From positions 1 through 32,921 of the forward strand of contig JAEUHU010000463.1 in NCBI GenBank assembly GCA_016793305.1: a DNA stretch of 32,921 nucleotides, in the 5' to 3' direction. The notes below the pieces were generated by a model. That model had not been told where the DNA came from and did not search any database. It saw nothing but the letters and a program-made list of their open reading frames with translations. Source of the DNA: Planctomycetota bacterium (GTDB lineage Bacteria > Planctomycetota > UBA1135 > UBA2386). Of the stretch, positions 2,951 to 32,921 are shown in pieces; the first letter of the stretch is position 1; every line of letters begins with the position of its first letter. The position numbers and the translations under genes were made by a program.

Positions 2951-2964
2951 TTCCCGTTCGGGAA
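2951..2964. promoter_or_regulatory. Short inverted repeat just before chemoreceptor start
   Basis: The perfect inverted repeat TTCCCG-TT-CGGGAA ends 11 bases before the ATG of the chemoreceptor gene. It may be an operator or a small hairpin near the start codon. No Shine-Dalgarno site is visible between it and the ATG. Confidence 0.3.
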
Positions 2965-2975
2965 CCGCATAGCCC

Positions 2976-5024: not shown

Positions 5025-5044
5025 CCGCGCCCGGTGCGCTGCCG

Positions 5045-5082
5045 GGCCCCGCGGGCGCAGATGCGCGCGGGCCTGAGGGGCC
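5045..5082. terminator. GC-rich stem-loop after chemoreceptor gene
   Basis: Twenty bases after the chemoreceptor stop, GGCCCC (5045-5050) can pair with GGGGCC (5077-5082). Alternatively, CCCGCG (5048-5053) can pair with CGCGGG (5066-5071). No T-run follows, so this is at best a weak terminator candidate. Confidence 0.25.
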
Positions 5083-5191
5083 ACGCGGGCCGCCGCATCC
5101 AGGGGAACGGTGCCCGGCGAACGTCGCCGTGGGCCGCAGCGGCAATTCCCGCCGACCGCGGCTCATTGCCCAGGAACCGGGCCGGCGACGG

Positions 5192-5219
5192 TTGCAGCGC
5201 ACCCGGCGGACCCTACCTT
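5192..5219 (+). promoter_or_regulatory. Candidate sigma70-type promoter of mqnC
   Basis: TTGCAG (5192-5197) and TACCTT (5214-5219) are separated by 16 bases, and the second box ends 10 bases before the ATG at 5230. The leader would be only a few bases and is pyrimidine-rich with no Shine-Dalgarno site, so the transcript could be nearly leaderless. The rest of the 205-base gap shows nothing else. Confidence 0.4.
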
Positions 5220-5229
5220 CTCCCTCCCC

Positions 5230-6444
5230 ATGACGCCCGCCGTCACTGCCGATCCGATCCGCCTGCGCGACCTGGCCCAGAAGGCCACCGACGGCGGCAC
5301 GCTCTCGCCCACCGAGGCCCTCGAGCTGTTCCGCGGCCTCGACCAGCCGTCGCTCGGGCTGTGCGCCAACGACGTGCGCCTGCGGCTCAATCCGGCCGGC
5401 CCCGACGGCAAGGTGCGCGTCACCTACATCGTCGACCGCAACCTCAACCCGACCAACGTCTGCGTCACCGACTGCGGCTTCTGCGCGTTCTACCGTTCGC
5501 CCGGCGACGCCGACGCCTACGTGCTGCCGCGCGAGGTCATCTACCAGAAGGTCGAGGAGCTGATCCAGAAGGGCGGCATCCAGCTGCTGCTGCAGGGCGG
5601 TCACCACCCGCGCCTGAAGAGCGACTGGTTCGCCGAGCTGTTCCGCGACCTGAAGCAGCGCTACCCGCAGGTGTGGATCCACGGCATGAGCCCGCCGGAG
5701 ATCACGCACCTGAGCAAGCTCGAGAAGCGGCCGGTGCTCGACGTGCTGAAGGACCTGCAGGCCGCTGGCCTCGACAGCATTCCCGGCGGCGGCGCCGAGA
5801 TCCTGGTCGAACGCGTGCGCAAGGTGATCGCGCCGAAGAAGGCCACCACCGACGAGTGGCTCGAGGTCTACCGCCAGTGGGCGAAGCTCGGCGGCAAGGG
5901 CACCGCGACGATGATGTTCGGCCACGTGGAGACCGACGCCGAGCGCATCGAGCACATGACGCGCATCCGCGAGCTGCAGGACGAGACGATCCGAGCGCAC
6001 GGCAGCGGCGTGTTCACCGCGTTCATCCCGTGGACGTTCCAGCCCGAGAACACGGCGATGGGCACGGTGATGCTGGCCGAGCGCGGCGGGCTGAAGGCGA
6101 CCGTCGCCGAGTACCTGCGCACACTGAGCATGGCGCGGCTCTACCTGCAGAACGTCCAGCACGTGCAGTCGAGCTTCGTCACGCAGGGCATGAAGACCTG
6201 CCAGATCGGCCTGTCGATGGGTGCGGACGACTTCGGCTCGGCGATGCTCGAGGAGAACGTGGTCAGCTCGGCCGGCTGCACGCACCCGACGTCGATCCCG
6301 GAGATCGAGCGCCACATCAAGGACGCCGGCTTCGTGCCGCAGCGTCGCAACATGATGTACGAGCCGGTCGAGACGCCGGCGACCGACAGGTTCGGCAACC
6401 CGGCCGGCGCGAAGAAGGCCGTGGTGTCCGCCGTACAGGCCTGA
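5230..6444 (+). CDS. mqnC: Cyclic dehypoxanthinyl futalosine synthase (MqnC), radical SAM
   Basis: This is a radical SAM enzyme of the futalosine pathway to menaquinone. It cyclises dehypoxanthinyl futalosine, the step before the naphthoate product is released. The [4Fe-4S] site C78-x3-C82-x2-C85 is seen in NVCVTDCGFCAFYR, the MqnC form of the motif. Other family stretches are GGIQLLLQGGHHPRLKSDWF (~115-135), HGMSPPEI, SIPGGGAEIL and GKGTATMMFGHVE. It has 404 residues from the ATG at 5230. An upstream in-frame start (5110) would add 40 residues rich in Arg and Pro that do not look coding. No other mqn gene is nearby, so the pathway is scattered in this genome. It implies menaquinone-based respiration. 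A weak sigma70-like promoter precedes it, and two hairpins follow it before the thioredoxin-like gene. Confidence 0.95.
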   Translation: MTPAVTADPIRLRDLAQKATDGGTLSPTEALELFRGLDQPSLGLCANDVRLRLNPAGPDGKVRVTYIVDRNLNPTNVCVTDCGFCAFYRSPGDADAYVLPREVIYQKVEELIQKGGIQLLLQGGHHPRLKSDWFAELFRDLKQRYPQVWIHGMSPPEITHLSKLEKRPVLDVLKDLQAAGLDSIPGGGAEILVERVRKVIAPKKATTDEWLEVYRQWAKLGGKGTATMMFGHVETDAERIEHMTRIRELQDETIRAHGSGVFTAFIPWTFQPENTAMGTVMLAERGGLKATVAEYLRTLSMARLYLQNVQHVQSSFVTQGMKTCQIGLSMGADDFGSAMLEENVVSSAGCTHPTSIPEIERHIKDAGFVPQRRNMMYEPVETPATDRFGNPAGAKKAVVSAVQA

Positions 6445-6466
6445 CGCGCGGCGGCCGAACCCCACG

Positions 6467-6509
6467 GGTCGGGAACCCTTCCCCACCCCGACCGAGGGAA
6501 CTCCCTCTT
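6467..6509 (+). terminator. Two adjacent hairpins after mqnC
   Basis: GGTCGGG (6467-6473) pairs exactly with CCCGACC (6487-6493) around a 13-base loop. Immediately after it, GAGGGA (6494-6499) pairs with TCCCTC (6502-6507), followed by TT. This is the best terminator-like structure in the window and lies 23 bases after the mqnC stop. The T-run is only two bases, so it may attenuate rather than stop transcription into 6544. Confidence 0.4.
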
Positions 6510-6543
6510 CGCGACCGCCACGACGGCTGCCGATCAGTCGCGC

Positions 6544-7188
6544 GTGGGACAGCCACCCTCGCACGATCGACTCACCACGCCAGCACTGCCACGCGTCGTG
6601 GCGACGTTCACGTTCGCCTCGCTCGCGCTCGCGGCGATCGCCTGGGTGTTCTGGGACCAGGACGTGCGCTACTCGCTGCCAACGCCTGCACCCGCCGGCC
6701 TGCAGCAACCGCCGCGCGGCACCACGATCGCCTTGCCGGCCGGCTTCGTCCTGCCGCCGGACGCGGTCGGACGGCCACTGCTGCTGCACTTCTACAACCC
6801 GGACTGCCCCTGCTCGCGATTCAACCGCGACCACGTGACCGGGCTGCACAAGCGGCACGGCGAACGGGTCACGTTCGTCGCGGTGCTCGAGCGCGACGTC
6901 GCCCACCGCGACGAGGACAGCGGCCTCGACCTGCCGCACTTCGTCGACGGCAAGGGCGAGCTCGCCGCGGCGCTGGGGGTCTACTCGACACCGCAGGCGG
7001 TACTGCTCGACCCCGAGCGACGCCTCGTGTTCCGCGGCAACTACAACACGAGCCGATACTGCAGCGATCCGGGCACCGAGTACGTGCGGCTGGCGATCGA
7101 GGCGCTGCTCGACGGCAGGACCTACGCCCCGCCGACGCAGGCGACCACCAGCTACGGCTGCGAACTGCCCGAGGAGGAGACGCGATGA
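6544..7188 (+). CDS. Membrane-anchored thioredoxin-fold protein (DUF6436-like)
   Basis: This protein of 214 residues has an N-terminal anchor (~19-36, VVATFTFASLALAAIAWVF) and a periplasmic thioredoxin-like domain. The core reads GRPLLLHFYNPDCPCSRFN, with cysteines C88 and C90 in a C-P-C arrangement instead of the usual C-x-x-C. The later LGVYSTPQAVLLDPERRLVF carries the cis-Pro loop (TP) of the fold. Further cysteines lie in SRYCSDPG and SYGCELPE. The CPCSRFN pattern resembles DUF6436 proteins as I remember them. The start is a GTG at 6544 because no ATG precedes the anchor; the upstream region has no Shine-Dalgarno site. Its stop overlaps the ATG of the hybrid histidine kinase (ATGA at 7185-7188), so the two are translated together. 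A redox or metal-sensing partner role is inferred. Confidence 0.85.
   Translation: MGQPPSHDRLTTPALPRVVATFTFASLALAAIAWVFWDQDVRYSLPTPAPAGLQQPPRGTTIALPAGFVLPPDAVGRPLLLHFYNPDCPCSRFNRDHVTGLHKRHGERVTFVAVLERDVAHRDEDSGLDLPHFVDGKGELAAALGVYSTPQAVLLDPERRLVFRGNYNTSRYCSDPGTEYVRLAIEALLDGRTYAPPTQATTSYGCELPEEETR
7171..7177 (+). promoter_or_regulatory. Shine-Dalgarno site for hybrid kinase
   Basis: GAGGAGG ends seven bases before the ATG at 7185. It lies inside the end of the thioredoxin-like gene and fixes the kinase start despite a longer open frame upstream. Confidence 0.75.
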
Positions 7189-9263
7189 ACGCGCCTGCGC
7201 CCGAAGCCGACGTCGCGCTCGTGCTGCGACCGATCCACCAGCGCGGCGACCGGCTGATGGCCGTGCTGCTGGGCGCCCACGCCTTGGCGGCGCTCTGCTT
7301 CGCCACCTTCTACGAGACGTGGCTGGTGACGTTCGTGGTGACCGGTCTCGCGCTGGCCATGTTCGCCTTCTCGTGGGCGCTGCTGCCCGCCACCCTGACC
7401 ACCAGGACCATCGCCGGCGTGTCGCTGCAGGCGTTCGTGGCGCTGCACATCTACCAGCTGCACGGGCTGGCGGAGATGCACTTCTTCTTCTTCACCGCCT
7501 TCACGGCCATGGTGGTCTACCAGGACTGGCGCTGCATGTGGGTCGGCGCCCTGCTGATCATCGGGCAGCACATCCTGTTCGCGGTTCTGCACAACCAGGG
7601 CACCAACTACCTGTTCTTCGAAGGCGACTACATCGGCGCGACCAAGCTGGCCTTCCACTTCGGCATCGCCCTGCTGCACGTGCTGCTGTGCAACCTCTGC
7701 GCGCACCTGCTCCGCTCGCAGACGCTGAAGGAAGCGGCGGCGCGGACGGAGCTGGCCGCGGCCCGCGGGCTCGCCGAACGGGCCTCGCAGGCCAAGACCG
7801 AGTTCCTCGGCACGATGAGCCACGAGCTGCGCACGCCGCTGTCGGGCGTGCTGAGCATGACCGAGCTGATGCTGCAGCGAGACCTGCCTCCCGAGCAGCG
7901 CGAGGAGCTCGCGATCGTGCACGGCTCCGCCGCGGCGATGGTCGCCATCGTCAACGACTCCCTGGACCTCGACCGCATCGAGGCCGGGCGCCTCTCGCTC
8001 TGCGACGAACCGCTGGACCTGCGCCGCCTCGCCGAAGAGGTCATCGAGCTGCTGACCCAGCGCGCCACGGTGGCCGACGTCGAACTGGTGCTCCGCTGGC
8101 GCCCGGGCGGCCCACGGCACCTGCGCGGCGACGCCGGTCGCTGGCGGCAGGTGCTGACCAACCTGGTCGGCAACGCGATCAAGTTCGCGAGCGGTGGCCA
8201 CGTGCTGCTCGACGTGGACGTCGCCGCGACGCCGGTCGGCGAACCCGCCGACGTGACGATCCGCATCGACGACAGCGGCCCGGGCATCCACCCCGACGTG
8301 CTGCCGCGACTGTTCCAGCGCTTCGAACAGGGCACCGCCGGCGTGTTCGCGAGCCACGGCGGCAGCGGCCTCGGCCTCGCCATCAGTCGCGAACTCGTGC
8401 ACCGCATGGGCGGAACCCTGACGGCTCACAGCGTGCTCGGCGCCGGGGCGACGTTCGTGATCCGCGCCGCCATGAAGGTGATCGCCCCCGCCGAGCCGGA
8501 GCCGCACATCGACACGCACGTGCTGCTGGTCGGCGAGCGCGAGCTGACGCTCGCGGTGCTCGCCGAGCAGCTGGAAGCCATGGGCGCCACCGTGGCCACG
8601 GCCCCCGACGCCGCCACGGCGCAGCAGCTGCACGCCCGCGGTGCGGCGGGACGACGGCCCTACGAGCTGCTGTTCTGCGATCCGGACCTGCTGGCCCGAC
8701 TCGAGCCGATCGCCGGTGCGATGCGCGTGGTCCAGCTCGGCGGCAGCGACCACCCCGGCCGGGAGCGCATCGTCTGGTTGTCGCGCCACGACGAACTGCG
8801 ACGGGTCGCCGCCGGGCGCCTCCGACCGAAGCACCAACCGGGGGCCCTGCCGCAGTTCGGCCTGCGCGTGTTGCTCGCCGAGGACGATCCGGTGTGCGTG
8901 CGCGTGGCGAGCCACATGCTGCGGCTGCTCGGCTGCACGACGGAGCACGTCGGCAACGGCGCCCTCGCCGTCGAGCGCGTGGCGACGCAGCGCTTCGACG
9001 TCGTGTTGATGGACTGCCGCATGCCGATCGTCGACGGCTACGAGGCGATGCAGCAGATCCGCGCCGCCGAGGCCCCGGGCGTGCGCGTGCCGATCCTCGC
9101 GCTGTCGGCGAACACGCAGCCGGCCGACCAGGAGCATTGCCTGGCCTGCGGCGCCGACGGGTTCCTCGGCAAGCCGGTGCAGTTGGGCCCGCTGGTCGCA
9201 GCCCTGCAGCGCGTCGTGCGGACCGCGCCGTCGGTCAGCGCGAGCCCGGCCGTTCCCGGCTGA
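7185..9263 (+). CDS. Hybrid histidine kinase with C-terminal receiver
   Basis: This membrane-bound hybrid sensor kinase has 692 residues. Residues ~22-176 hold about six helices, with the conserved segment HIYQLHGLAEMHFFFFTAF (88-106) known from a group of 7TM-like sensor domains. A short coiled coil leads to HisKA with the phospho-acceptor H213 in MSHELRTPLSGVL. The HATPase domain shows the N box NLVGNAIKFA (N330), G1 DDSGPGI (362-368) and G2 GSGLGLAI. A first receiver-like domain (~444-545) has lost the Asp pocket (VLLVGER..., LLFCDPD) and looks degenerate. The second receiver (~560-675) is intact: AEDD (565-568), D610 in VLMDCRMPIVDG, and K663. It is co-translated with the thioredoxin-like protein upstream, which suggests a shared periplasmic signal. 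No separate output regulator is nearby. Its 3' end overlaps the convergent helicase gene by 29 bases. Confidence 0.95.
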   Translation: MNAPAPEADVALVLRPIHQRGDRLMAVLLGAHALAALCFATFYETWLVTFVVTGLALAMFAFSWALLPATLTTRTIAGVSLQAFVALHIYQLHGLAEMHFFFFTAFTAMVVYQDWRCMWVGALLIIGQHILFAVLHNQGTNYLFFEGDYIGATKLAFHFGIALLHVLLCNLCAHLLRSQTLKEAAARTELAAARGLAERASQAKTEFLGTMSHELRTPLSGVLSMTELMLQRDLPPEQREELAIVHGSAAAMVAIVNDSLDLDRIEAGRLSLCDEPLDLRRLAEEVIELLTQRATVADVELVLRWRPGGPRHLRGDAGRWRQVLTNLVGNAIKFASGGHVLLDVDVAATPVGEPADVTIRIDDSGPGIHPDVLPRLFQRFEQGTAGVFASHGGSGLGLAISRELVHRMGGTLTAHSVLGAGATFVIRAAMKVIAPAEPEPHIDTHVLLVGERELTLAVLAEQLEAMGATVATAPDAATAQQLHARGAAGRRPYELLFCDPDLLARLEPIAGAMRVVQLGGSDHPGRERIVWLSRHDELRRVAAGRLRPKHQPGALPQFGLRVLLAEDDPVCVRVASHMLRLLGCTTEHVGNGALAVERVATQRFDVVLMDCRMPIVDGYEAMQQIRAAEAPGVRVPILALSANTQPADQEHCLACGADGFLGKPVQLGPLVAALQRVVRTAPSVSASPAVPG

Positions 9264-18419: not shown

Positions 18420-19147
18420 ACCCCTCGCCCCAAGCGGCGGTCGGCGTCGCCCCGACTCACCCGTCGCCGTCGCCCCGCCTCCATCGCTCCCTCCGGATCC
18501 CCGACCCGCCGACGGTGTCCCGCTTCGTGCGCGCCGACGACCCGCACACGCGGCACTTCGTGTTCCCGCTGCCGGCCACCTGGTGGAGCCGCGGCCACGA
18601 GTACGCATGGGCGTTCCAGTTCGCGGCGCAGGACCATGTCGTACTCGACGCCGCCTGCGGCATCGGCCATCCGCTGAAGTTCGCGCTGGCCGCGCGCTGC
18701 CGAGCGGCATTCGCGTGCGACCTCGACCCGCGCATCGACGACCCGGCCGCGATCGTCGCCGACATCCAGGCCGACTTCGGTGCTGCGGCGGCGCGCACGC
18801 TCGATCCGGCCCTGCTGCACCGGCTCGGCCGCGCGCGCTGTTCGATCACGGCGACTCCGTACGGAGCCCGTGTGTTCGATCGCGTGTTCTGCATCTCGGT
18901 GCTCGAGCACCTGCCGCCGGCCGATCGCGCCGCGGCCCTCCTCGAGTTCGCGCGGATCGTGCGCGACGACGGACTGGTCGTGCTGACGATGGACCACCCG
19001 CTGGTCGACCTCGGCGAGTTCGTGCGCATGGTATCCGCGGCGGGCCTGCGGTTCGTCGGCGACGTGCGGCTGGACGTGCCGCAAGACGCCCTGTGGTCGC
19101 ACGCCTACCGGCTGCGCTGCTTCCGGGCGCTGCTGCAGCGAGCCTGA
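18416..19147 (+). CDS. Class I SAM-dependent methyltransferase
   Basis: This protein of 243 residues has the Rossmann methyltransferase signature. Motif I is VVLDAACGIGHPLKFALAA (76-94), the acidic end of strand 2 is ACDLDPR (D102/D104), and the strand 4 region is FCISVLEHLPPADRAAALLE (~157-176). LTMDHPLVDLGEFVRMVSAAG follows, as in family 11-type enzymes (Methyltransf_11). The first ~45 residues are Pro-rich with little structure. Its start overlaps the stop of the two-domain glycosyltransferase (ATGA, 18416-18419) and has a good Shine-Dalgarno site. A sugar or glycolipid acceptor made by that enzyme is therefore the likeliest substrate, but sequence alone does not show whether it methylates oxygen, nitrogen or carbon. 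The gene ends 56 bases before the peptidase gene in the same direction, which may belong to the same transcript. Confidence 0.88.
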   Translation: MNPSPQAAVGVAPTHPSPSPRLHRSLRIPDPPTVSRFVRADDPHTRHFVFPLPATWWSRGHEYAWAFQFAAQDHVVLDAACGIGHPLKFALAARCRAAFACDLDPRIDDPAAIVADIQADFGAAAARTLDPALLHRLGRARCSITATPYGARVFDRVFCISVLEHLPPADRAAALLEFARIVRDDGLVVLTMDHPLVDLGEFVRMVSAAGLRFVGDVRLDVPQDALWSHAYRLRCFRALLQRA

Positions 19148-19203
19148 CCCCAGGCCCCGAGCGCAGGCTGGACAGCACCGGCGGCGCGCGCCACTGTCCG
19201 CGC

Positions 19204-20586
19204 GTGAACCGCACGCTCCGCTTCGCCGTCGCCACCCCACTCGTCCTCGGCCTGTGCGCCTGCGCGCTCGGCTCCGGGGACGAACGTCCGACGACCAAGG
19301 CACACGAGCGCTGTGCGGCCCTGGTCGAACGCGCCCTCGACGACAACCGCGCCATCGCCTTGCTCGGCGATCTCGTGGCCGCAGCGCCGAAGCGCCTCAG
19401 CGGCTCGCCCGGCAGCGCCGACGCCGTGCAGTGGGGCCTGCGCACGATGCGCGAACTCGGCCTGCAGAACGTGCGCGCCGAGCCGTGCCTCGTGCCGCAC
19501 TGGGAGCGCGGTGTCGAGACCGCGGCGATCGTCGGCGACGGCGAACCACTGCGCGTCACCGCGCTCGGCGGCAGCATCGGCACGCCCGCCGAGGGCCTCG
19601 AGGCCGAGGTCGTCGAGGTCCGTTCGTTCGAGCAGCTGCAGCAGCTCGGCGACGCCGCCCGCGGCAAGCTGGTGTTCTTCAACCGGCCGATGCCACGCGC
19701 GCTGCGCGCGGTCGGCCAGGCCTACGGCGAAGCGGTGCCGCAGCGCAGCAACGGCGCGGTCGAGGCGGGCAAGGTCGGCGCGATCGGGGCCATCGTGCGC
19801 TCGGCGACGACGGCGATCGACACGCTGCCGCACACCGGCGCCATGCACTACGACCCCGAGGTCCCACAGGTGCCCGCTGCGGCGATCGCGACGCTCGACG
19901 CCGAACGGCTGCACGCGGCCCTGCAGCGCGGCCCCGTGCGCGTGCGCCTGCAGCTCGGCTGCCGCCCGCTGCCCGACGCGCCCGGCGCGAACGTGGTCGG
20001 CGAACTGGTCGGCAGCACGTTCCCCGAGCGGATCGTCGTCGTCGGGGGCCACCTCGACGCCTGGGACCTCGGCCAGGGGGCGCACGACGACGGGGCCGGC
20101 TGCGTGCACGCGCTCGAAGCCGTGCGCCTGCTGCAGGCCTGCGGCATCCGGCCGCGGTGCACGATCCGCGTGGTGCTCTACGCCAACGAGGAGAACGGCC
20201 TGCGCGGGGCCCGCGCCTACGCGGACGCGCATCGCGACGAATTGCGCCACCATGTCGCGGCGCTCGAGAGCGACAGCGGGGGCTTCGCACCTAGCGGCAT
20301 CCTCACGTCGCTCCGCGACGAGGCTGCCGCGGCGATGCGCGCCGCACTCGCACCGCTGCAGGACCACGGAGCCGGCACGTTCCTGCCGGGAGCCGGCGCG
20401 TGCGGGGCCGACATCGGTCCGCTGCACGACGCCGGCGTGCCGTGCTTCGGGCTGCACGTCGGCAGCCAGCGCTACTTCGACCACCACCACGCCGCGAACG
20501 ACACGCTCGAGGCCGTCGACGACCGCGAGCTGGCGCTCGGGGCCGCGGTGGTCGCGTTCACGCTGTCGGTGCTCGCCGACGGCTGA
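19204..20586 (+). CDS. Exported M28-family metallopeptidase
   Basis: This zinc aminopeptidase or carboxypeptidase of family M28, close to carboxypeptidase Q in layout, has 460 residues. The N-terminus is a signal sequence ending L-C-A-C20, so it may be a lipoprotein. Residues ~130-250 form an inserted PA-like domain (GKLVFFNRPM, VGAIGAIVRSATT). The catalytic part shows all ligand motifs: H283 in GGHLDAWDLG, D295 in AHDDGAGC, E329/E330 in ANEENGLRGARAY, D357 in LESDSGGF, and the C-terminal His in YFDHHHAANDT (427-429). It would trim peptides in the periplasm or outside the cell. The start is a GTG at 19204 because it gives a complete signal peptide and follows the methyltransferase stop; no Shine-Dalgarno site is seen. 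The downstream 75 bases have no clear terminator. Confidence 0.92.
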   Translation: MNRTLRFAVATPLVLGLCACALGSGDERPTTKAHERCAALVERALDDNRAIALLGDLVAAAPKRLSGSPGSADAVQWGLRTMRELGLQNVRAEPCLVPHWERGVETAAIVGDGEPLRVTALGGSIGTPAEGLEAEVVEVRSFEQLQQLGDAARGKLVFFNRPMPRALRAVGQAYGEAVPQRSNGAVEAGKVGAIGAIVRSATTAIDTLPHTGAMHYDPEVPQVPAAAIATLDAERLHAALQRGPVRVRLQLGCRPLPDAPGANVVGELVGSTFPERIVVVGGHLDAWDLGQGAHDDGAGCVHALEAVRLLQACGIRPRCTIRVVLYANEENGLRGARAYADAHRDELRHHVAALESDSGGFAPSGILTSLRDEAAAAMRAALAPLQDHGAGTFLPGAGACGADIGPLHDAGVPCFGLHVGSQRYFDHHHAANDTLEAVDDRELALGAAVVAFTLSVLADG

Positions 20587-22383: not shown

Positions 22384-22746
22384 CTACCGCCGCCGCACCC
22401 GGATCGGCCCCTTGGCGGTCGACGGATCGACCACCCGCCCACCCTGCGTGACCCCCGCAAACCCTGCCGCCACCAGCCGTCGCGCTGCTTGCCGCGCCGG
22501 CTCCATCAGCGGCCGCCAGTCGAGCGTCAAGGCCCGCGCCGCCTCCGACGGACAGATGGTCGCACCGAGCGGCCGAGACTCGAGCAGCTGCTGGATCGCC
22601 AGCTCGAGCGAACGATCGGTCGCATCGAGGCCACGGCGGCAGCCGGCACTGCAGTAGCGAACCTGGTCCCAGGAACGCGCCCAGCGCTTGCGCCAGGCGA
22701 TCGTCCGGCCACAACGCTCGCAGGTCTTGTCGGCGGGCACCGTCAT
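22384..22746 (-). CDS. DUF2256-DUF3253 fusion protein
   Basis: This is a 120-residue protein made of two small domains. Residues ~7-40 form a four-Cys zinc ribbon of the DUF2256 type: C9-x2-C12 in CERCGRTIAWRKRW and C32-x3-C36 in YCSAGCRR. Residues ~48-118 match DUF3253, a winged-helix-like domain: LLESRPLGATICPSEAAR, then LVAAGFAGVTQGGRVVDPS and the closing AKGPIRVRRR. The combination occurs in other bacteria. The presence of a zinc ribbon and a winged helix suggests nucleic-acid binding, but no function is established. It is divergent from the ECF sigma factor across 130 bases and could share that control region. No Shine-Dalgarno site precedes the ATG at 22746. Confidence 0.85.
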   Translation of the reverse strand: MTVPADKTCERCGRTIAWRKRWARSWDQVRYCSAGCRRGLDATDRSLELAIQQLLESRPLGATICPSEAARALTLDWRPLMEPARQAARRLVAAGFAGVTQGGRVVDPSTAKGPIRVRRR

Positions 22747-22876
22747 CGCGTTCGCCGCCTGTTCGGTGGCCCACCGCGCGTGGATGCGTCGCGCGCCCCC
22801 GCCGTGCGCGCCAGGAAATCCGCAGCCCGACCAATCCGGGATCGTCGACCGGCGTCTTCACCGGCACGATCGATCC

Positions 22877-23407
22877 ATGACCGCCGCGGACGCACCGCTC
22901 CCCGAGCTGTTCCAGGCCCATCGCCAGGGCCTCGCGGGAGCCGTGCGTTCGGTGCTCGGTCCCTCGGCCGACGTGCCCGAACTGCTGCAGACCGCCTTCC
23001 TGAAGTGCTGGTCGAAGTGGCAGCAGGGCACCCGGCCGGCGGACCCGGTGGCCTGGATCTTCGTCGTCACCTGGAACACGGCGGTCGACGCGCGACGGGC
23101 GCGCCAACGCCGGCCGCAACACGAACCGCTCGACGAAGGAACCACCGTGGCACCCACCCTCCATCCGTCGCCGTCGCACGCGCTCGAACATCGCGAAGCG
23201 GTGGCCGAAGCCCAGGCCGCGATCGCGCGGCTCAGCGACCCCGAGCAGCAGGTGTTCCTGCTGCGCACCGCCGCCGAACTGTCGTTCGAGGCGATCGCGA
23301 ACGAACTGGCGATCCCCGTCGGCACGGCGAAGACGCGCATGCGCAGCGCGCTGCAGAAGCTGCGCACCACCCTCGGTGTCCCGACCCGACAGGAGAGTCC
23401 ACGATGA
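22877..23407 (+). CDS. ECF-type RNA polymerase sigma factor
   Basis: This is a sigma-70 family factor of 176 residues with regions 2 and 4 only. Region 2 covers ~9-80 (LFQAHRQGLAGAVRSVLGP, ELLQTAFLKCWSKWQQG and PVAWIFVVTWNTAVDARRAR for the -10 contact). Region 4 covers ~115-168 (AIARLSDPEQQVFLLRTAAE, then the helix-turn-helix LSFEAIANELAIPVGTAKTR). The linker between them (~81-110) is poorly conserved. The start is the ATG at 22877; the open frame extends further up but reads like non-coding Arg/Pro-rich sequence. Its last bases overlap the start of the alpha-2-macroglobulin gene (ATGA, 23404-23407), so the two are co-translated. That protein's cytoplasmic N-terminus is therefore the likely anti-sigma factor. 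No convincing autoregulated GGAAC/CGTC promoter was found upstream. Confidence 0.93.
   Translation: MTAADAPLPELFQAHRQGLAGAVRSVLGPSADVPELLQTAFLKCWSKWQQGTRPADPVAWIFVVTWNTAVDARRARQRRPQHEPLDEGTTVAPTLHPSPSHALEHREAVAEAQAAIARLSDPEQQVFLLRTAAELSFEAIANELAIPVGTAKTRMRSALQKLRTTLGVPTRQESPR
23391..23395 (+). promoter_or_regulatory. Shine-Dalgarno site for alpha-2-macroglobulin
   Basis: AGGAG ends eight bases before the ATG at 23404 and lies within the sigma-factor gene. It decides this start within a reading frame that is open for another 1.4 kb upstream. Confidence 0.75.
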
Positions 23408-26400
23408 GCCAGCACCCCGAGTTCTCTCCCGCCGAACGCGACCAGCTCGCCCAGGAACTGCTCGAGCTGCACTTCGGCTGCCACGAAGACCCGACCGCAC
23501 TGCAAGCGCGTCTCGCCGCCGAGCCGGCCCTGCGGGCGCTGCAGCAGGAGGTGCTGCAGAAGGCACGGGTGCTCGAGGCGGCGGTGAAGCCGACGATCGA
23601 CCCGCTGCCGTTGCCGGCACCTGGATCGGCGTCGAAGGCCGACCATGCCCATGGCCGCCCGGAGTCCCTGCCGCGGCGACTGCTGCGCACTCCGTTCGGA
23701 CGCCTCGGCACGCTGGCCAGCATCGCCGCAGCCGCCCTGCTTCTGGGCCTCGTGTTCGCGTTCGTCGCAGCCCGCGAGCACGCGCAGTTCCAGCGCGAAC
23801 ACCTGCACCTGACCGTCACCGCTCCACGCGCAGTGCCCGGTGGGGCGGCTTGGAGTTTCACCGCCGAGACGCGCGATCTGACCGGCAGCCCCGTCGACGG
23901 TGAACTGCGCTGGCAGGCGTTCGCCGCGAACGGCACCCTGCTGGCGCAGCAAACGACCGCGACGCAGCACGGCAAGCTGGTCGCGACACTCGCCGCCCAT
24001 CCGGACCTGCAGGCCCCGGCTCGCCTGGTCGTCACTGCCGCCACCGCGACCGACGAGGTCTCGCACGTGCTGCCGCTGGCGACGCAGGCGGCGGGCCCGC
24101 TGGTGCACGTCACCACCGATCGCGCGGTCTATCGCCCGGGGGAGCCGCTCTACGCGCGCGCCGTCGTGCTCGACCGCGTCACACGCCTGCCACTCGACAA
24201 GCAGCCGCCGATGCGCGCGCGGCTCGTCGAGGCCAACGGCACTGCCGTCGCGTTCGACCAGGATCCGCAGCCGCACGGCGGCACCAGCGCGTTCACCCTC
24301 GGTCTGCCGGCCCACGGCCCGAGCGGCCCGTTGACGCTCGAGGTCGACGCCGCCGACGGCTCGCTGCCGGTCGAACGCTGCGAGATCGTCGTGCGCAGCT
24401 TCCAGCCGCCCCAGCTGCAGAAGAAGGTTATGCTCGACCGCAGCAGCTACGCACCGGGTGCCCGCGGTGCGGCGACGGTGACGGCGCTGCGGCTCGCCAC
24501 CGGCAACACCGGGGCCTCGGGTGCCTCGGCGACCGCGATGCTGGTGATCGACGGCACCGAAGTGTGGCGCGAGAAGCGTGTGCTCGGCGCACTCGGCGAA
24601 GCGACCTTCGCCTTCGTGGTGCCGAAGGACATCGCCCAGGGTGCGGCACGCTTCGTCGCGACCATCGACGACGGCGGCATCGTCGAGACCGAGGTGAAGC
24701 CGTTCGTGGTGCCGACCGGCAAGGTGCTGGTCGGCTTCTTCCCCGAAGGCGGCGAGCTCGTCGCCGGCGTCGACAACCGCGTCTACGTCGAGTGCACCGA
24801 TCCACTGGGTCGCGCGATCGACACCGTCGGTGATCTGCTCGACGAACGGGATCGTCCGATCGCGAAGTTCCACACCGCCCACCAGGGCCGCGGCATCGTC
24901 GCGTTCGTGCCGAAGGCCGGCACGAGCTACCGGCTGCGCCTCACCGGCCAGGCGGAGCCGTTCGCGCTGCCGGCCGCTCAGGAACGCGGCCTGGCGCTGC
25001 AGCTGCGCGGCGACGAAGTCGCGGCGGCAGCACCGGTGCGCCTCTCGCTCGCCGGCCGCGGCGACGGACCGTGGCTGGTCGGCGTGTTCTGCCGCGGTGT
25101 GCTGGTCGGCCAGACCACGGTGCGCGCCGACGGCAACGGCGAACTGCGCGCCGACGTCGAACTGCCGCTGCCGCCCCACGTCGCCGGCGTACTGCGCGCC
25201 ACGGTGTTCGACCGCAAGCTGCAGCCGGTGGCCGAACGCCTGCTGCGCCGTGCTTCGGCGCAGCACCTCGCGATCGCGATCCGAGCCCAGAAGCCCGAAC
25301 TCAGCCCCGGCGAGCGCCAGCAGCTGACCGTGCAGACGAACGACGAGACCGGCCGCGGCCGCGCGGCCCTCGTCGGGCTCTCGGTCACCGACGACTCGAT
25401 CCACGCGCTGGCCAGCGAGCCGCGCATCGGCCTCGTCGACCATGCGCAGCTGTTCGCCGACGTCGACCGCGGCCTCGAGAAGCTCGAGGCGTTCGGCGAC
25501 TTCTTCCTCGGCGCGGACGGCGCCTCGGCCCACGCCGACCTGCTGCTCGGCACGCGCGGCTGGCGCCGGTTCGTGTGGCGCAACGACGCGAGCGCGCAGG
25601 CGGCGCTGCTCGCGCGTGGCCCCCGGGCGACGGAGTTGCTGGTTCGCGAAGGGTTCGCGCAGGTGCCACAGGTCGCGAGCAACCTCGCCGGTGCGGCCGC
25701 GAAGGGTTCGGCGTTGGCCGACGCGGCGGCGATGGCCGACGAACGCGTGCGCAGCTGGGCTGCCTTGGCGCTGGTGATGCTCGCGACCGCCATCGCCCTC
25801 GAAGGCCTCGCTGCCTTCGTGCGACGCGACCGACGGCGCTGGATCCCGACCCTGGCCGGAACGACGGCGCTGGTGGCACTGATCGCCTTGCTCGTGCCGC
25901 AGATGGCCGAGAGCTCGGCGCCGCCGCCGGGAAGCGCGAGCATGGACGTGCTCAACTCGGCCAACTTCGCGAAGGCCGGCGGCGTCGCCGGTCTCGACGA
26001 CTTCGACATCGTGACGGCCCAAGCGGCGGCCGTGCCGTTCCTGCTCCCCGCCGACGCTCGCGGCGAAGCCAAGGATCCGTTGGCCGGCCCCTTGGCCGGC
26101 GCGTTCTACGACGACGGCGACGAGAGCGACCTCAGGGCCTACCGCCTCGTGCGGCTCGGGTACTGGGACGTCGGCGGGTTCGGTGTGGTCGATGAGTTGG
26201 AGGACCTGTCCGAGGAGATCCTGCAGGAACGCCTCGCCATCCGCAGGCTCCGCGACTGGAGCGGCCCTCGCCACTACGCCCACCAGCACACGCCGACCGA
26301 CGAACGCCGCGACTTCACGCCGACGATCTTCTGGAACGCGCTCGTCGTCACCGACTCGACCGGCCAGGCGACCGTCGAGTTCGCGACCAGCGACGCCGTG

Positions 26401-28404
26401 ACGACGTGGCGTGTGCACGCCGACGCCCACACGGTGTCCGAGAACGGGCGGCTCGGGCAGGCGAACGCGACCTTCTCGGCACGCTTGCCGGTGCAGGTCG
26501 AAGCGAAGCTGCCCGACGAAGTGGCCGCCGGCGATCGCCTGCAGCTGCCGGTGAACGTCGTCGTGCGCGACACGACCGCGACCGAGGTCTCGCTCGTGGC
26601 GAACGTCGGCGACGGCCTGCGGCTCGCCGGCGCTGCGCCGACCACGATCGCGCTGCGCGCAGGCCGCGGCCGCGTGCTGCTGCCGATCGACGTGCAGGAC
26701 CGCCCCGGCCACACGACCGTTCGCCTCGCCGTGCGCCACGGCCGCTTCGAAGACCGCCTCGAGCGCACCGTGGCGATCGCCCCGCGCGGCTTCCCGCACC
26801 GCCGCTCGCACGGCGGCACGCTCGTGCCCGGCACGCCGAGCGAGGTCACGCTCGCGGTGCCGGACCGGTTCGTGCCGAACACCGGCCATGCAACGCTACG
26901 GCTGTTCCCGACGCCGCTCAGCACGCTGACCGCCGGCCTCGAAGGCATGCTGCAGGAGCCGCACGGCTGCTTCGAACAGACCAGTTCGACGAACTATCCG
27001 AACACGCTGGTGCTGCAGTTGCTCGACGAAGGCGGCGACTGCGTGCCGACGGTGGCGCTACGCGCCCGCGACCTGCTCGCGAAGGGCTACGCGCGCCTCG
27101 TCGGCTTCGAGTGCAAGCGCGGCGGCTTCGAGTGGTTCGGCGGCGATCCGGGCCACGAGGCGCTGACCGCCTACGGGCTGCTGCAGTTCCACGACATGGC
27201 GCAGGTGTTCGACGTCGACGCGGCGATGGTCGCGCGCACGCGCAGCTGGCTGCTCGGCCGCCGCAACGGCCGCGGCGACTTCGTGCACGAGGGCACCGAC
27301 CACCACGCGTTCGGACGTTCGCAGCTGCTGACCAACGCCTACTGCGTCTACGCGCTGCTGCAGTCGGGCAGCGCCGCGAACGAACTGTCCACCGAACTCG
27401 ACGCGCTGCTGGCCCGTGGACACAGCAGCGACGACGCCTACGAACTGGCCCTGATCGCCAACGCGCTGCAGCTCGCCGGCCGCGCCGACGCCGCGGCAGT
27501 CCGCCAGCGTCTCGCCGAACGGCAGAAGCCCGACGGCTCGTTGTGCGGCACGACCACGTCGATCACGCAGAGCAGCGGCCGCGACCTCGCGGTCGAGACC
27601 ACCGGCCTCGCGGCCCTGGCGTGGCTCGCCGATCCGGCGTTCGCGAGCCGCACCCGAAAGGCGCTCGAATGGCTGCAGTCCTGCCGTTCGGCGAACGGCA
27701 CCTTCGGCGCCACCCAGGCGACCGTCTGTGCGCTGCGCGCGCTGGTCGCCTACGCGCGCTCGGCGCGGCCGATGCGCACCGCCGGCCTGCTGCGCATCCA
27801 CCGCGGCGACACGCTGCTGGCCGAACGCGCGTTCGCAGCCGACGCGACCGAACCGCTGACCGTCGAGCTGTGGGCGATGCTCGAGCCCGGGGCGCAGACG
27901 CTGCGGCTCGAAGTGACCCGCGACGGCTCCGCCGCGCCCGACGCCACAGCCCCGACGATGCCGTGGGCGCTCGACGTCGCCTACCGCGCCGAACAGCCGG
28001 CCGACGACCCCGACGCTCCGCTCGTGCTGCGCACCACCCTGCGGTCGCGTTCGGTCCAGGAGGGCGAGCCCGTGGCGCTCGACGTCGCGCTCGAGAACAG
28101 CACCGGCGCCGACGTGCCGACGCCGATCGTGCGCCTCGGCCTGCCGGCTGGCTGCGAGCTGCCGACGCGGGTGCTCGAGGACCTGCAGCGCAGCGGCCGG
28201 TTCGACCACTGGGAGCTGCAGGGCCGCGACCTCGTGCTCTACTGGCGCCAGATGCCCGCACGCAGCGAGCGCACGTTCGTGCTCGACCTGGTCGCCCGCG
28301 TGCCCGGCACCAGCAGCGGTGCCGCATCGCGCGCGTGGCCCTACTACGCGCCGACCCGGCACCGCTGGGCCGCCCCGCTGGAGATCGAGATCCGGGCGAA
28401 GTGA
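23404..28404 (+). CDS. Membrane alpha-2-macroglobulin with anti-sigma-like N-terminus
   Basis: This giant envelope protein has 1666 residues. Residues 1-100 are cytoplasmic and helical (LAQELLELHFGCHED..., LQARLAAEPALRALQQEVLQ), like the N-terminal domains of anti-sigma factors. TM1 is at ~101-124. Then come periplasmic macroglobulin domains, with MG2 at ~233-345 (DRAVYRPGEPLYARAVVLDR). TM2 (~785-803) and TM3 (~813-832) flank a basic turn RRDRRR, which fits positive-inside topology. The alpha-2-macroglobulin core (~970-1060, NALVVTDSTGQATVEFATSD) follows, then the thioester domain (~1170-1490) with C1189-F-E-Q1192 in PHGCFEQTSS, so the covalent trap is intact. A final beta domain closes the protein. 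E. coli YfhM is the related trap; it is usually paired with PBP1c, which is absent here. The ATGA overlap with the ECF sigma gene and the N-terminal domain suggest signalling; this is inferred. Confidence 0.95.
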   Translation: MSQHPEFSPAERDQLAQELLELHFGCHEDPTALQARLAAEPALRALQQEVLQKARVLEAAVKPTIDPLPLPAPGSASKADHAHGRPESLPRRLLRTPFGRLGTLASIAAAALLLGLVFAFVAAREHAQFQREHLHLTVTAPRAVPGGAAWSFTAETRDLTGSPVDGELRWQAFAANGTLLAQQTTATQHGKLVATLAAHPDLQAPARLVVTAATATDEVSHVLPLATQAAGPLVHVTTDRAVYRPGEPLYARAVVLDRVTRLPLDKQPPMRARLVEANGTAVAFDQDPQPHGGTSAFTLGLPAHGPSGPLTLEVDAADGSLPVERCEIVVRSFQPPQLQKKVMLDRSSYAPGARGAATVTALRLATGNTGASGASATAMLVIDGTEVWREKRVLGALGEATFAFVVPKDIAQGAARFVATIDDGGIVETEVKPFVVPTGKVLVGFFPEGGELVAGVDNRVYVECTDPLGRAIDTVGDLLDERDRPIAKFHTAHQGRGIVAFVPKAGTSYRLRLTGQAEPFALPAAQERGLALQLRGDEVAAAAPVRLSLAGRGDGPWLVGVFCRGVLVGQTTVRADGNGELRADVELPLPPHVAGVLRATVFDRKLQPVAERLLRRASAQHLAIAIRAQKPELSPGERQQLTVQTNDETGRGRAALVGLSVTDDSIHALASEPRIGLVDHAQLFADVDRGLEKLEAFGDFFLGADGASAHADLLLGTRGWRRFVWRNDASAQAALLARGPRATELLVREGFAQVPQVASNLAGAAAKGSALADAAAMADERVRSWAALALVMLATAIALEGLAAFVRRDRRRWIPTLAGTTALVALIALLVPQMAESSAPPPGSASMDVLNSANFAKAGGVAGLDDFDIVTAQAAAVPFLLPADARGEAKDPLAGPLAGAFYDDGDESDLRAYRLVRLGYWDVGGFGVVDELEDLSEEILQERLAIRRLRDWSGPRHYAHQHTPTDERRDFTPTIFWNALVVTDSTGQATVEFATSDAVTTWRVHADAHTVSENGRLGQANATFSARLPVQVEAKLPDEVAAGDRLQLPVNVVVRDTTATEVSLVANVGDGLRLAGAAPTTIALRAGRGRVLLPIDVQDRPGHTTVRLAVRHGRFEDRLERTVAIAPRGFPHRRSHGGTLVPGTPSEVTLAVPDRFVPNTGHATLRLFPTPLSTLTAGLEGMLQEPHGCFEQTSSTNYPNTLVLQLLDEGGDCVPTVALRARDLLAKGYARLVGFECKRGGFEWFGGDPGHEALTAYGLLQFHDMAQVFDVDAAMVARTRSWLLGRRNGRGDFVHEGTDHHAFGRSQLLTNAYCVYALLQSGSAANELSTELDALLARGHSSDDAYELALIANALQLAGRADAAAVRQRLAERQKPDGSLCGTTTSITQSSGRDLAVETTGLAALAWLADPAFASRTRKALEWLQSCRSANGTFGATQATVCALRALVAYARSARPMRTAGLLRIHRGDTLLAERAFAADATEPLTVELWAMLEPGAQTLRLEVTRDGSAAPDATAPTMPWALDVAYRAEQPADDPDAPLVLRTTLRSRSVQEGEPVALDVALENSTGADVPTPIVRLGLPAGCELPTRVLEDLQRSGRFDHWELQGRDLVLYWRQMPARSERTFVLDLVARVPGTSSGAASRAWPYYAPTRHRWAAPLEIEIRAK

Positions 28405-28443: not shown

Positions 28444-29859
28444 ATGACGACCCGCTCCGCCACCGTGGTTCTCGTCACCGGGCTGCTGGCGCTCACTGCT
28501 GCAGCCCAGGACACCGCACCACCGAAGGTGCCGACACACGTCGGTGATGCGACGCTGCACCACGAGCCAGCACGCGAAGTGGGTGCTTCGCAATGGTCGC
28601 TGTGGATGGCGCTCGACCCGCAGACCCGATCGGTCGACGACGTGCGTGCGCACCTCGAGGAACTGCAGCGCCGCTTCGAGAAGCAGCCGCTGCGGATCGG
28701 CGTCGTGCTGCAGGACGCCGCTGCGAAGGCGCTCGCCGCCACGGCACCACGGTTCACGGTCGTCGGCACGGAAGGGTCCATCGCCGTTCCCTCGCTGGCG
28801 ACCGCATCGATCACGGATGCCACGGGCTCGCTCGTAGCCGAGCTGTCGCTCGACTACGCCGAGGACGTGCTGGCGGCTCTGCTCGACGGCAAGGCGGTCG
28901 ATACGATCATGGGGAGCATCGCCCTCGCCGAGAGCCAGCTCGCCACCGTTGGCGATGCCGAAGCCCATCCGCCGACCATCAACGAGCTGCTCGCCGCCCT
29001 GCCGCACAGCGGTCGGGTGCGCGCGCTCGCCGTCCTGGAGCCGTGGTGGTGCCGCGGCGAACACGCCCCGGCCCTCGAAGCACTCGACACCGGCCTGCGC
29101 GAACTCGCCGGCCACACCTATGCGTTGGCCCAGTTCGTCGACCTGGTCGGCCGTGGCGACGACAGCGACCCGACGGTGCGCCAGCGCCTCGCCATCGAGA
29201 TGGCCCCGGTCGCAGCCGCCGCTGGCGACGACCCGTTCGTCCAGTTGGTCTTCCTGCGGTCGCTGCTGCGCGCGAACCGTACGCGACTCGCCGAGCGCGT
29301 GACCAAGCGGCTCGACGCGCAGCTGCAGAAGCGGGGCGATGCCTTCCTGCGGCTGCAGTTCGCCGAGGTGCTGATGGACGCGAAGGACCCGCGCCCGTTG
29401 CGCGCCCTCGCCCAGGCGCATCTCGACGCGATCGCCGACAGCGCGCTCGACCTGGAAGGCATGGCGATGGTGCGCCACAAGCTGCTGCGCCGCTGCGGCG
29501 ACGACAAGGCCGCCGCCGAGCTGCTGAAGCAGTTCCTGCCCGACGAGACCGCGTCCGGCCTCAACAACCACGCCTGGTACACGTGTGTGCGCCTCGACAC
29601 GATGGGCCGGTTCCCCAACTGGGCGAACGACCTCGCCGACCGCATGCTCGCCAGCGATCGGGAACGCCTCGAATCGAACTACCGCGACACCGTGGCGCTG
29701 GCATTCTTCTGTGCTGGACGCGTCGAGGCGGCGGCCGAGCAGCAGACGATCGCCATCGGCGAACACCAGGGCGACCCCCGCTACGCCGGCCGGTTGCGCC
29801 GCTTCGAAGATGCGCTGGCGCGGCAGCGACGCGTGCCGCCGCCGCCTAGCCCGAAGTAG
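28444..29859 (+). CDS. Secreted helical (TPR-like) protein of unknown function
   Basis: This exported protein has 471 residues. A signal peptide is clear (TTRSATVVLVTGLLALTAAA, cleavage likely near residue 22 before QDTAPP). The mature part begins with an alpha/beta segment (~40-150, with DDVRAHLEELQRRFEKQPLR) and continues as an all-helical array typical of tetratricopeptide-like repeats. Examples are DPFVQLVFLRSLLRANRTRL, KRGDAFLRLQFAEVLMDAKD and, near the C-terminus, YRDTVALAFFCAGRVEAAAE. It ends in a Pro-rich tail PPPPSPK. I recognise no enzyme motif. It follows the alpha-2-macroglobulin gene by 39 bases in the same direction and could be the third gene of that operon or have its own promoter. 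A scaffold or partner role in the periplasm is possible but not shown. Confidence 0.75.
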   Translation: MTTRSATVVLVTGLLALTAAAQDTAPPKVPTHVGDATLHHEPAREVGASQWSLWMALDPQTRSVDDVRAHLEELQRRFEKQPLRIGVVLQDAAAKALAATAPRFTVVGTEGSIAVPSLATASITDATGSLVAELSLDYAEDVLAALLDGKAVDTIMGSIALAESQLATVGDAEAHPPTINELLAALPHSGRVRALAVLEPWWCRGEHAPALEALDTGLRELAGHTYALAQFVDLVGRGDDSDPTVRQRLAIEMAPVAAAAGDDPFVQLVFLRSLLRANRTRLAERVTKRLDAQLQKRGDAFLRLQFAEVLMDAKDPRPLRALAQAHLDAIADSALDLEGMAMVRHKLLRRCGDDKAAAELLKQFLPDETASGLNNHAWYTCVRLDTMGRFPNWANDLADRMLASDRERLESNYRDTVALAFFCAGRVEAAAEQQTIAIGEHQGDPRYAGRLRRFEDALARQRRVPPPPSPK

Positions 29860-31734: not shown

Positions 31735-31899
31735 GGGGAACCCGCGTGGTCACGGCGCCAGCACCGGCGATTCGGCCGAACGGCGCACCGCCCCCGAGCG
31801 CATGCGACCCGACCAACCCGCAGACCCACCCGAACTTCGTGGGGGCGCCCGGCAAACCCCCTGCGCTGGCCGCGGCAGTGCGGCTATCCTGCCGACCCC

Positions 31900-32921
31900 A
31901 TGCGTTCTGCGCTCCTCGTCCCGACGGCGGTCGCCGCCGTCGCCGCCACGCTCTCGGCCCAGGCCCCGCCGACCTACTACAACACGGTCAACACGACGAC
32001 GCCGGCCCTGTTGCGCAGCACGCTGCACGCGGTGATCGACGACCACACGAAGATCCCCTACACGGCGAGCGCGACCGACACGTGGGACGTGCTCGAGGTC
32101 GCCGACCAGGCCCCGAGCAGCAGCACGCAGATCCTCGACCTCTACAAGAACGCGCTCTACACGAAGCAGGGCGGCGGCAACTCGTTCTACAACCGCGAGC
32201 ACAGCTGGCCGAACAGCTACGGGTTCCCGAACGACGGCGCGACCAACTACCCGTACACCGACTGCCACCACCTGTTCCTGTGCGACATCGCCTACAATGG
32301 CGCGCGCGACAACAACCCGTTCCAGGCGGGCACCGCCAGCTGGACCGAGTGGAGCACGGTGGCGAACGCCGGCCAGGGCGGCGGCAGCGGCACGTTCCCC
32401 GGCAACTCCAACTGGTGGACTTCGGCAGCACCGGCCGGCGGCTGGCAGACGTGGAACGGGCGCAAGGGCGACGTGGCGCGCGCGATGTTCTACATGGACG
32501 TCCGCTACGAGGGTGGCACGCACGGCGCTACGGGCGCCAGCGAGCCCGACCTGATCCTCACCGACGACCTCAACCTGATCGACAACAGCGCGACCGGCAG
32601 CAACACGACGATCGCCTACATGGGCAAGCTCAGCGTGCTGCTGCAGTGGCACCTCGACGACCCGGTCGACAGCAAGGAGATCGCGCGCAACAACGCGATC
32701 TACGCCGAGCAGGGCAACCGCAACCCGTTCATCGACCATCCGGAGTGGGTCGCGTGCATCTACCAGAACGCCTGCCAACGCGTGCGGCTGCCGGAGATCT
32801 GGATCAACGAGTTCCACTACGACAACAACGGCACCGACGTGAACGAGCTGGTCGAGATCGCCGGCCCGGCCGGTGAGAAGGTCGACGACTGGATGCTGGT
32901 CGCCTACGACGGCGCCAACGG
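31900..32921 (+). CDS. Endonuclease I family nuclease with lamin-tail domain, cut by window edge
   Basis: This is an exported nuclease; 340 codons are visible and the frame is open at the window end. The signal peptide is RSALLVPTAVAAVAATLSAQA. The endonuclease I (NucM/Vvn/EndA type) domain spans ~25-290. It has the beta-beta-alpha-metal motif N98-R-E-H101-S-W-P, the DCHHLFLCD stretch (121-129), GDVARAMFYMDVRYEG (190-205), and the closing LLQWHLDDPVDSKEIARNNA and RNPFIDHPEW motifs. From ~298 a lamin-tail domain begins (PEIWINEFHYDNNGTDVNEL, then VEIAGPAG...DDWMLVAYDG). Such enzymes cut DNA and RNA outside the cell for nutrient supply. The lamin-tail domain may bind a surface or substrate. The start is the ATG at 31900; a TATCCT box ends nine bases before it and there is no Shine-Dalgarno site. 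More domains or a sorting signal may follow beyond the edge. Confidence 0.93.
   Translation, partial: MRSALLVPTAVAAVAATLSAQAPPTYYNTVNTTTPALLRSTLHAVIDDHTKIPYTASATDTWDVLEVADQAPSSSTQILDLYKNALYTKQGGGNSFYNREHSWPNSYGFPNDGATNYPYTDCHHLFLCDIAYNGARDNNPFQAGTASWTEWSTVANAGQGGGSGTFPGNSNWWTSAAPAGGWQTWNGRKGDVARAMFYMDVRYEGGTHGATGASEPDLILTDDLNLIDNSATGSNTTIAYMGKLSVLLQWHLDDPVDSKEIARNNAIYAEQGNRNPFIDHPEWVACIYQNACQRVRLPEIWINEFHYDNNGTDVNELVEIAGPAGEKVDDWMLVAYDGAN

Follow-up and report, generated by a model that had tools for sequence, protein, structure and literature searches.

The 32,921-nucleotide stretch of planctomycete DNA analysed here (contig JAEUHU010000463.1, hereafter the window) carries an extracytoplasmic function (ECF) sigma factor gene directly followed by a gene for an alpha-2-macroglobulin (A2M)-type membrane protein. 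The presence of this gene pair is confirmed. We propose that the A2M is a membrane-threaded anti-sigma factor paired with this sigma factor, and that it would signal cleavage of its bait and renew the trap, a reading to which we assign a probability of roughly 0.55. As read from the sequence, this proposal is supported by the domains of the two proteins, the relationship of the A2M N-terminus to known anti-sigma domains (ASDs), a bait-position membrane hairpin, the linker that follows it, the linkage of the two genes and the conservation of their promoter. The nearest named relatives of the window are planctomycete metagenome-assembled genomes. The features of the system are as follows; TM denotes a transmembrane segment and the residue numbers are those of the A2M.

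22831..22859, + strand: ECF-like promoter CCAATCC-N15-CGTCTTC, with 18 nt from CGTCTT to the sigma ATG; conserved in relatives
22877..23407, + strand: ECF sigma factor gene, 176 aa; ATG at 22877, stop TGA at 23405-23407; Sigma70_r2 and Sigma70_r4
23404..28404, + strand: A2M-type membrane protein gene, 1666 aa; ATG at 23404, ATGA overlap with the sigma stop
23440..23586, + strand: probable zinc-less class I ASD core, residues 13-61; three helices, hhalign links, RslA match
23713..23769, + strand: TM1, residues 104-122; hydropathy 2.57, model helix 97-132
23803..25392, + strand: first part of the macroglobulin ring, residues 134-663
25765..25896, + strand: transmembrane hairpin TM2-RRDRRR-TM3 at the bait position, residues 788-831; hydropathy, model helices, sigma association
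25897..26262, + strand: bait-like linker, residues 832-953; low predicted local distance difference test (pLDDT) score, variable length
26323..26595, + strand: A2M domain PF00207, residues 974-1064; E=1.3e-11
26929..27753, + strand: thioester domain (TED), residues 1176-1450; TED_complement E=2.1e-26; CFEQ at residues 1189-1192, positions 26968-26979

The sigma factor and A2M genes

The sigma protein matches Sigma70_r2 (E=1.6e-10, residues 11-79) and Sigma70_r4 (E=3e-10, residues 115-163), and Pfam finds no other sigma regions in its 176 residues, which is the composition of an ECF factor. Its PDB relatives include RpoE/SigE, SigL, SigK and SigW. An initial annotation, made from the window sequence, described the sigma and A2M genes as overlapping as ATGA with a Shine-Dalgarno site. 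Both features are present, the site being AGGAGAG upstream of the A2M start, and six relatives have the same 4-base overlap (L001, L002, L003, L011, L046 and L055). The 1666-residue reading frame of the trap gene also holds, with a stop that ends at 28404, as do the roughly 100 residues placed ahead of the first membrane segment (A2M residues 104-122) and the intact thioester, CFEQ at 1189-1192. The overlap in relatives, together with an ASD core of nearly fixed length and high identity, takes the observation beyond chance. That annotation does not mention the bait-position membrane hairpin, the conservation of the promoter or the selenocysteine-like codons of relatives.

The window A2M has MG2, A2M and TED_complement domains over the Pfam cut-off, the combination of a thioester-type A2M; A2M_BRD is below its cut-off (18.8 of 22.7 bits). 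The predicted structure contains the A2M ring fold, and its closest structural matches include C3, C5, CD109 and TEP1 as well as protease traps. The CxEQ thioester motif is present, and its C, F, E and Q are invariant in 38 of 38 aligned family members, a selection from the 114 found.

The hairpin segments (residues 788-806 and 813-831) have hydropathies of 2.25 and 2.03 and fall in predicted helices 769-808 and 810-835. Residues 832-935 of the linker have a pLDDT below 50, about 33, in the predicted structure and are disordered. Across the 38 members the linker varies from 63 to 222 residues with a mean pairwise identity of 23%. The linker is therefore disordered, variable and located ahead of the A2M domain, as is a bait region, but it is preceded by a membrane hairpin. 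Eight relatives have a larger insertion at the bait position, with 4 to 8 membrane segments (L097, L099, L101, L103, L104, L108, L115 and L117).

The probable N-terminal anti-sigma domain

The window model contains the bundle of helices 1-3 expected of an ASD (residues 9-23, 30-39 and 41-61) at a pLDDT of about 92, and the model of relative L030 has the three helices too. In the 38 aligned members the core is 48-49 residues long with a mean pairwise identity of 62%. This equals the level of the TED (62%) and is above that of the first macroglobulin domains (49%). Culturable relatives with an A2M of this N-terminal type include Rubripirellula tenax and a Stieleria species.

The Hx3Cx2C zinc motif, which is common and not required in class I ASDs, is absent from the window domain. 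According to excerpts of PMC7406223, the motif is missing in about 44% of known ASDs, and class I groups mix zinc and non-zinc forms. Because so many known ASDs lack the motif, the window domain may still belong to class I. In two A2M searches, 19 of the 234 proteins carried an N-terminal HxxxCxxC motif. Of five such proteins checked, four have zf-HC2 over the Pfam cut-off (P0331, P0334, P0352 and P0104) and P0091 is just below it. P0331, P0334 and P0352 combine the N-terminal zf-HC2 with MG2, A2M and TED domains, and P0334 carries the source annotation anti-sigma factor RsiW; P0104 is without the TED. Four short zf-HC2 proteins that have no thioester domain (P0103, P0104, P0105 and P0109) could be partial gene models.

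Comparison of profiles with hhalign links the window-type ASD to a Pirellulales type (98.3%, E=2.2e-14) and the Pirellulales type to the zf-HC2 type (96.7%, E=4e-10). The direct match of the window type to the zf-HC2 type is weaker (60.6%, E=8.3e-5), and controls with reversed profiles and secreted A2M reach at most 0.4%. The best PDB match of the family ASD profile is the Mycobacterium tuberculosis anti-sigma factor RslA (E=0.028). The sequence relationship to known ASDs is thus made by the stepwise profile link and the RslA match. Neither Pfam nor NCBIfam recognised an ASD in the N-terminal 119 residues of the window protein, where Pfam gave PaaX_M at E=0.26 and NCBIfam gave no match.

These comparisons make a class I ASD without zinc the most likely identity of the N-terminal domain of the window A2M. 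ASDs of this class hold ECF sigma factors (PMC7406223, excerpts). The anti-sigma-like character that the initial annotation gave to this domain agrees with the profile links, the conserved core and the co-inheritance with a sigma gene, and this reading has good support short of proof. Modelling of the domain with the sigma factor, which had been proposed as a check, was carried out with a single-chain sigma-ASD model as a stand-in for the complex. The domains are confident (pLDDT 87, predicted template modelling score 0.65) and the ASD folds well, but the model does not fix its placement. The structural-match (VIA) rows of this model span residues 1-169 only, and the ASD lies outside them.

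Linkage of sigma and A2M genes in relatives

The A2M loci came from two sets. The first comprised the best 80 by similarity, with GCFEQ among the scan patterns. A sigma gene lies directly upstream in all 17 A2Ms of this set that had both an N-terminal alignment and an upstream contig (L006, at a contig edge, was set aside). No sigma gene was found within 3 kb of those with alignments starting at residue 185 or later, some of these loci being cut by contig ends. The second set was drawn evenly from the phylum as 149 genomes, of which 34 gave matches with E <= 1e-60, with the best few candidates per genome scored. From these, 46 stretches were taken, leaving out two at contig edges (G047:C121 and G048:C457) and four genes already in the first set. 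Pooled without the window, the sets contain 95 distinct A2M genes in which MG2 is preceded by 1.5 kb or more of sequence; left out were 13 genes with a shorter upstream sequence, 30 frames lacking the N-terminal region and 5 duplicates.

A sigma gene precedes the A2M in 26 of 28 genes with a recognised ASD versus 3 of 67 without one (Fisher 8e-18), and in 29 of 33 genes with at least one bait-position membrane segment versus 0 of 62 without (Fisher 2e-20), in tests that take the genes as unrelated. MG2 was anchored by profile alignment in these counts. A motif-based anchor, which went astray in L004, L008 and L011, for example, gave 21/25 versus 3/69 sigma-linked genes by ASD. The initial annotation suggested a search for the same pair across genomes, and the pair does recur, with 29 of the 95 pooled A2M genes sigma-linked.

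The sigma-linked A2Ms without a recognised ASD are L097, L101 and L118. In L118 (- strand, 2697-3985 along the strand), the sigma gene is followed by a separate open reading frame with HLADCEDC and a hydrophobic segment, and then by a hairpin A2M without an ASD. This is probably a split version of the sigma, anti-sigma and A2M set. The contrary outcome named in the initial annotation was a separate anti-sigma gene in relatives together with an unconserved N-terminal domain; this one split relative was found, and the N-terminal domain is highly conserved elsewhere. L097 has a different A2M N-terminal domain, which presumably resembles the starts of FecR-type anti-sigma factors, and a weak sigma match upstream (9e-7).

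The ECF-like promoter of the operon

The window and six of seven close relatives examined (L001, L002, L003, L005, L007 and L010) share the sequence AATCC-N15-CGTCTT upstream of the sigma gene; in L008 only CGTCTT and the spacing are retained. CGTC is a usual -10 element of ECF promoters. The pattern occurs once in the window (22833-22858), where 0.11 occurrences would be expected with up to one mismatch allowed. Across the genomes of five relatives, exact matches lie at the operon in four and at two other sites, and the backwards control gives 0. With one mismatch, three genomes have 22, 9 and 10 sites versus 4, 8 and 6 in the backwards control, and several of the extra sites look coding by eye. 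The conserved promoter and the concentration of exact matches at the operon suggest autoregulation, in which the sigma factor would transcribe its own operon.

Selenocysteine-like codons at the thioester of relatives

The thioester cysteine codon of the window is a cysteine codon and not TGA. The retrieved loci contain 125 thioester sites, a few of them from genes retrieved twice. Of these codons, 81 are TGC, 30 TGT and 14 TGA, with no TAA or TAG. The 14 TGA loci are from 10 genomes (L096, L098, L102, L103, L104, L108, L109, L111, L112, L114, L115, L116, L119 and L122), several of which also carry a cysteine A2M. In 13 of the 14 the frame extends for at least 922 codons upstream and at least 384 codons downstream of the TGA, and in L111 it is broken again 315 codons before the TGA. 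These relatives have an in-frame TGA at a conserved cysteine, no other type of stop at that position and, in 13 of them, an otherwise open frame, as in selenoproteins. Four of the 14 TGA genes are sigma-linked (L102, L103, L114 and L122). In a quick tree built from the thioester region, TGA rows occur in at least two places and are mixed with cysteine relatives. Since its patterns included GCFEQ, the first genome scan was biased against the TGA type.

The machinery for selenocysteine was compared with that of 28 genomes which have an A2M and in which TGA was not found (G047, G082, G126 and G157 were left out). A tRNA-Sec above 60 bits is present in 8 of 10 TGA genomes versus 23 of 28 comparison genomes, a line chosen because scores of up to about 50 seem to occur for other tRNAs; at Rfam's own 47 bits the counts are 9/10 versus 24/28. 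SelB is over its cut-off in 8/10 versus 24/28, and each of the ten TGA genomes has at least one of tRNA-Sec and SelB. The machinery is common in the phylum and therefore does not discriminate. A crude hairpin resembling a selenocysteine insertion sequence (SECIS), scored by an ad hoc rule, follows 10 of 14 TGA sites versus 35 of 111 cysteine sites (p=0.006), and the downstream folding-energy z is about equal (TGA -0.67, Cys -0.52). The machinery and SECIS observations are permissive but not decisive. The codon pattern indicates that the TGA probably encodes selenocysteine, which would make these relatives selenoester A2Ms.

Proposed mechanism and alternatives

In the proposed mechanism, the cytoplasmic ASD would hold the sigma factor and TM1 would lead to the extracytoplasmic macroglobulin ring. 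The TM2-TM3 hairpin would tether the bait segment to the membrane, followed by the long disordered linker and then by the thioester arm. A protease entering the compartment would cut the linker, the ring would collapse and the thioester would bind the protease. This change could be relayed through TM1 either directly or by making the stalk accessible to regulated intramembrane proteolysis, which in RseA-type systems involves site-1 and site-2 proteases. As a result, the ASD would lose the sigma factor. The freed sigma factor would transcribe at least its own operon, and the spent trap would be replaced. We infer sigma binding, the protease trigger, capture, transmission and release, along with any regulon beyond the operon. 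In the E. coli A2M, bait cleavage results in large movements and the cut bait displaces the thioester arm (PMC4498604, in part). The protease-sensor reading is plausible from the domain arrangement, and the bait-position hairpin makes it sharper than in the initial annotation. A more tentative extension is that one protein serves as both receptor and weapon, in which the bait is pinned by the hairpin and covalent capture outside would free the sigma factor inside; some lineages would have a selenoester warhead, which would be faster.

Several observations weigh against the proposed sensor. The RslA match is weak (E=0.028), and the profile behind it has 15 rows of mixed ASD types. A fourth ASD helix is not predicted, and residues 62-94 are disordered in the window model; in known complexes helix 4, which contacts sigma2, is joined by a flexible linker (PMC7406223, excerpts). 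The arrangement of sigma2 and sigma4 in the single-chain model differs from that of solved inhibited complexes by a root mean square deviation of about 10-16 Å over both domains, and therefore the model does not show docking of the sigma factor to the ASD. The -35 part of the promoter, CCAATCC, differs from the usual ECF motif, and no match to a generic ECF pattern lies upstream of the window sigma gene. The one-mismatch sites total 41, three of them the operon, versus 18 in the control, with most of the excess in one genome, and no common target among them stood out by eye in the three genomes. The Fisher tests ignore relatedness, and the sigma label, placed on 24 sigma-linked cysteine rows of the thioester tree, needs about 4 changes, at least two of them forced. 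Two A2Ms (L084 and L098) have a zf-HC2-like N-terminus with neither a hairpin nor a sigma neighbour, and four (L104, L108, L115 and L120) have mid-chain membrane segments with neither an ASD nor a sigma gene. The separate reading frame of L118 gives only a weak match to the ASD profile (7e-4) and has no Pfam match at E <= 0.01.

The same gene arrangement could also result from abundance feedback. The ASD would gauge the amount of intact trap in the membrane, and consumption or degradation of the trap would free the sigma factor to refill the pool, with the trap acting as effector and not as receptor. This would agree with the joint operon of sigma factor and trap, its conserved ECF-like promoter and the finding of only two exact promoter matches elsewhere in five genomes. 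However, simple titration does not require the tie between the sigma gene and the bait-position insertion (29/33 versus 0/62), and we consider this explanation fairly unlikely. It is also unlikely that the system senses something other than a protease, with the ring and thioester binding or tagging a nucleophile, surface glycan or envelope polymer, as do complement C3/C4 and insect TEPs, and so freeing the sigma factor. C3, C5, CD109 and TEP1 are among the closest structural matches beside the protease traps, and the bait-position insertions of relatives reach 4-8 membrane segments, both of which would suit such a sensor; the long, disordered and fast-changing linker at the bait position fits a protease bait instead.

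The N-terminal domain might also not be a working ASD, in which case the gene order would be inherited by chance and the A2M would be an ordinary anchored trap. The sigma-ASD placement left unsettled by the single-chain model, the absence of the zinc motif from the window and the blindness of Pfam and NCBIfam to the domain are in its favor. It is nevertheless very unlikely, given that relatives with zf-HC2 exist, that the ASD core is as conserved as the thioester domain and that sigma linkage is found in distant groups.

Neighboring genes

The window also has genes outside of the proposed system. A 471-residue protein with a signal-peptide-like start is encoded directly behind the A2M (28444-29859, + strand); it has no Pfam match, and no homologue was found among the loci of the 17 relatives compared. 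An Endonuclease I family gene, also with a signal-peptide-like start, is located at about 31897-32919 (+ strand) and runs off the window; the assignment is from Pfam on the window and L002 copies. Endonuclease I homologues were found by BLAST behind the A2M in L002, L005, L007, L008 and L010. The gene is displaced in the window and was not counted as part of the system. A small protein with DUF2256 and DUF3253 domains (22384-22746, - strand) is encoded divergently from the sigma operon. At 18583-20586 (+ strand), 2.3 kb before the sigma gene, lies a gene of the peptidase M28 family, which is of possible relevance as a protease. Further upstream (2976-9263, + strand) is an MCP-type chemoreceptor gene followed by a hybrid histidine kinase gene with a receiver domain.

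Comparison with known systems

The class I anti-sigma factors RseA, RsiW, RslA, RskA and ChrR share with the planctomycete protein a cytoplasmic helical ASD ahead of a membrane segment and a gene directly behind that of an ECF sigma factor. The planctomycete outer part differs from theirs in that it consists of a complete thioester A2M (about 1500 residues), and the protein makes two or more extra membrane crossings. RsiV of Bacillus subtilis is also an anti-sigma factor whose outer part meets the attacker (PMC4183432 and PMC5014341, both in part). RsiV binds lysozyme, whereas the planctomycete outer part has a protease-trap fold, a thioester motif and a bait-like linker.

The E. coli A2M (ECAM) and Salmonella SaA2M share the macroglobulin ring, the CxEQ thioester and inner-membrane anchoring. 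The window model matches the E. coli protein only from about residue 383 on and adds the ASD and the internal hairpin. The gene for ECAM often shares an operon with pbp1C, and two additional MG domains are present at the N-terminus of bacterial A2Ms (PMC4498604, in part). The order of ring, bait position and TED is shared with CD109 and human A2M, neither of which has an anti-sigma domain. These are among the best structural matches, starting at chain residues 28-39, which we take to be MG1. CD109 has a lipid anchor and not a bait-region hairpin.

The text on planctomycete ECF systems used for comparison mentions macroglobulin 0 times. Among the matches listed from open-licence PMC full texts (subscription papers being outside this scope), there was no report of an A2M joined to an anti-sigma domain or of a selenocysteine A2M. 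The main text of PMC4807772 has 0 occurrences of macroglobulin; its supplements list selenoprotein candidates, and an A2M is possible there. The portions seen of a CAGE paper (PMC12485934) and a BREX paper (PMC12839542) concern other proteins, and these were rejected as precedents.

If the proposed reading is true, thioester-trap chemistry resembling that of innate immunity would be combined with transcriptional control in one polypeptide. It would explain how bacteria could sense proteolytic attack on the envelope, and would provide a concrete signal for a group of unstudied planctomycete ECF factors. The association of the sigma gene with the bait-position insertion (29/33 versus 0/62) marks the site at which to look for signalling.

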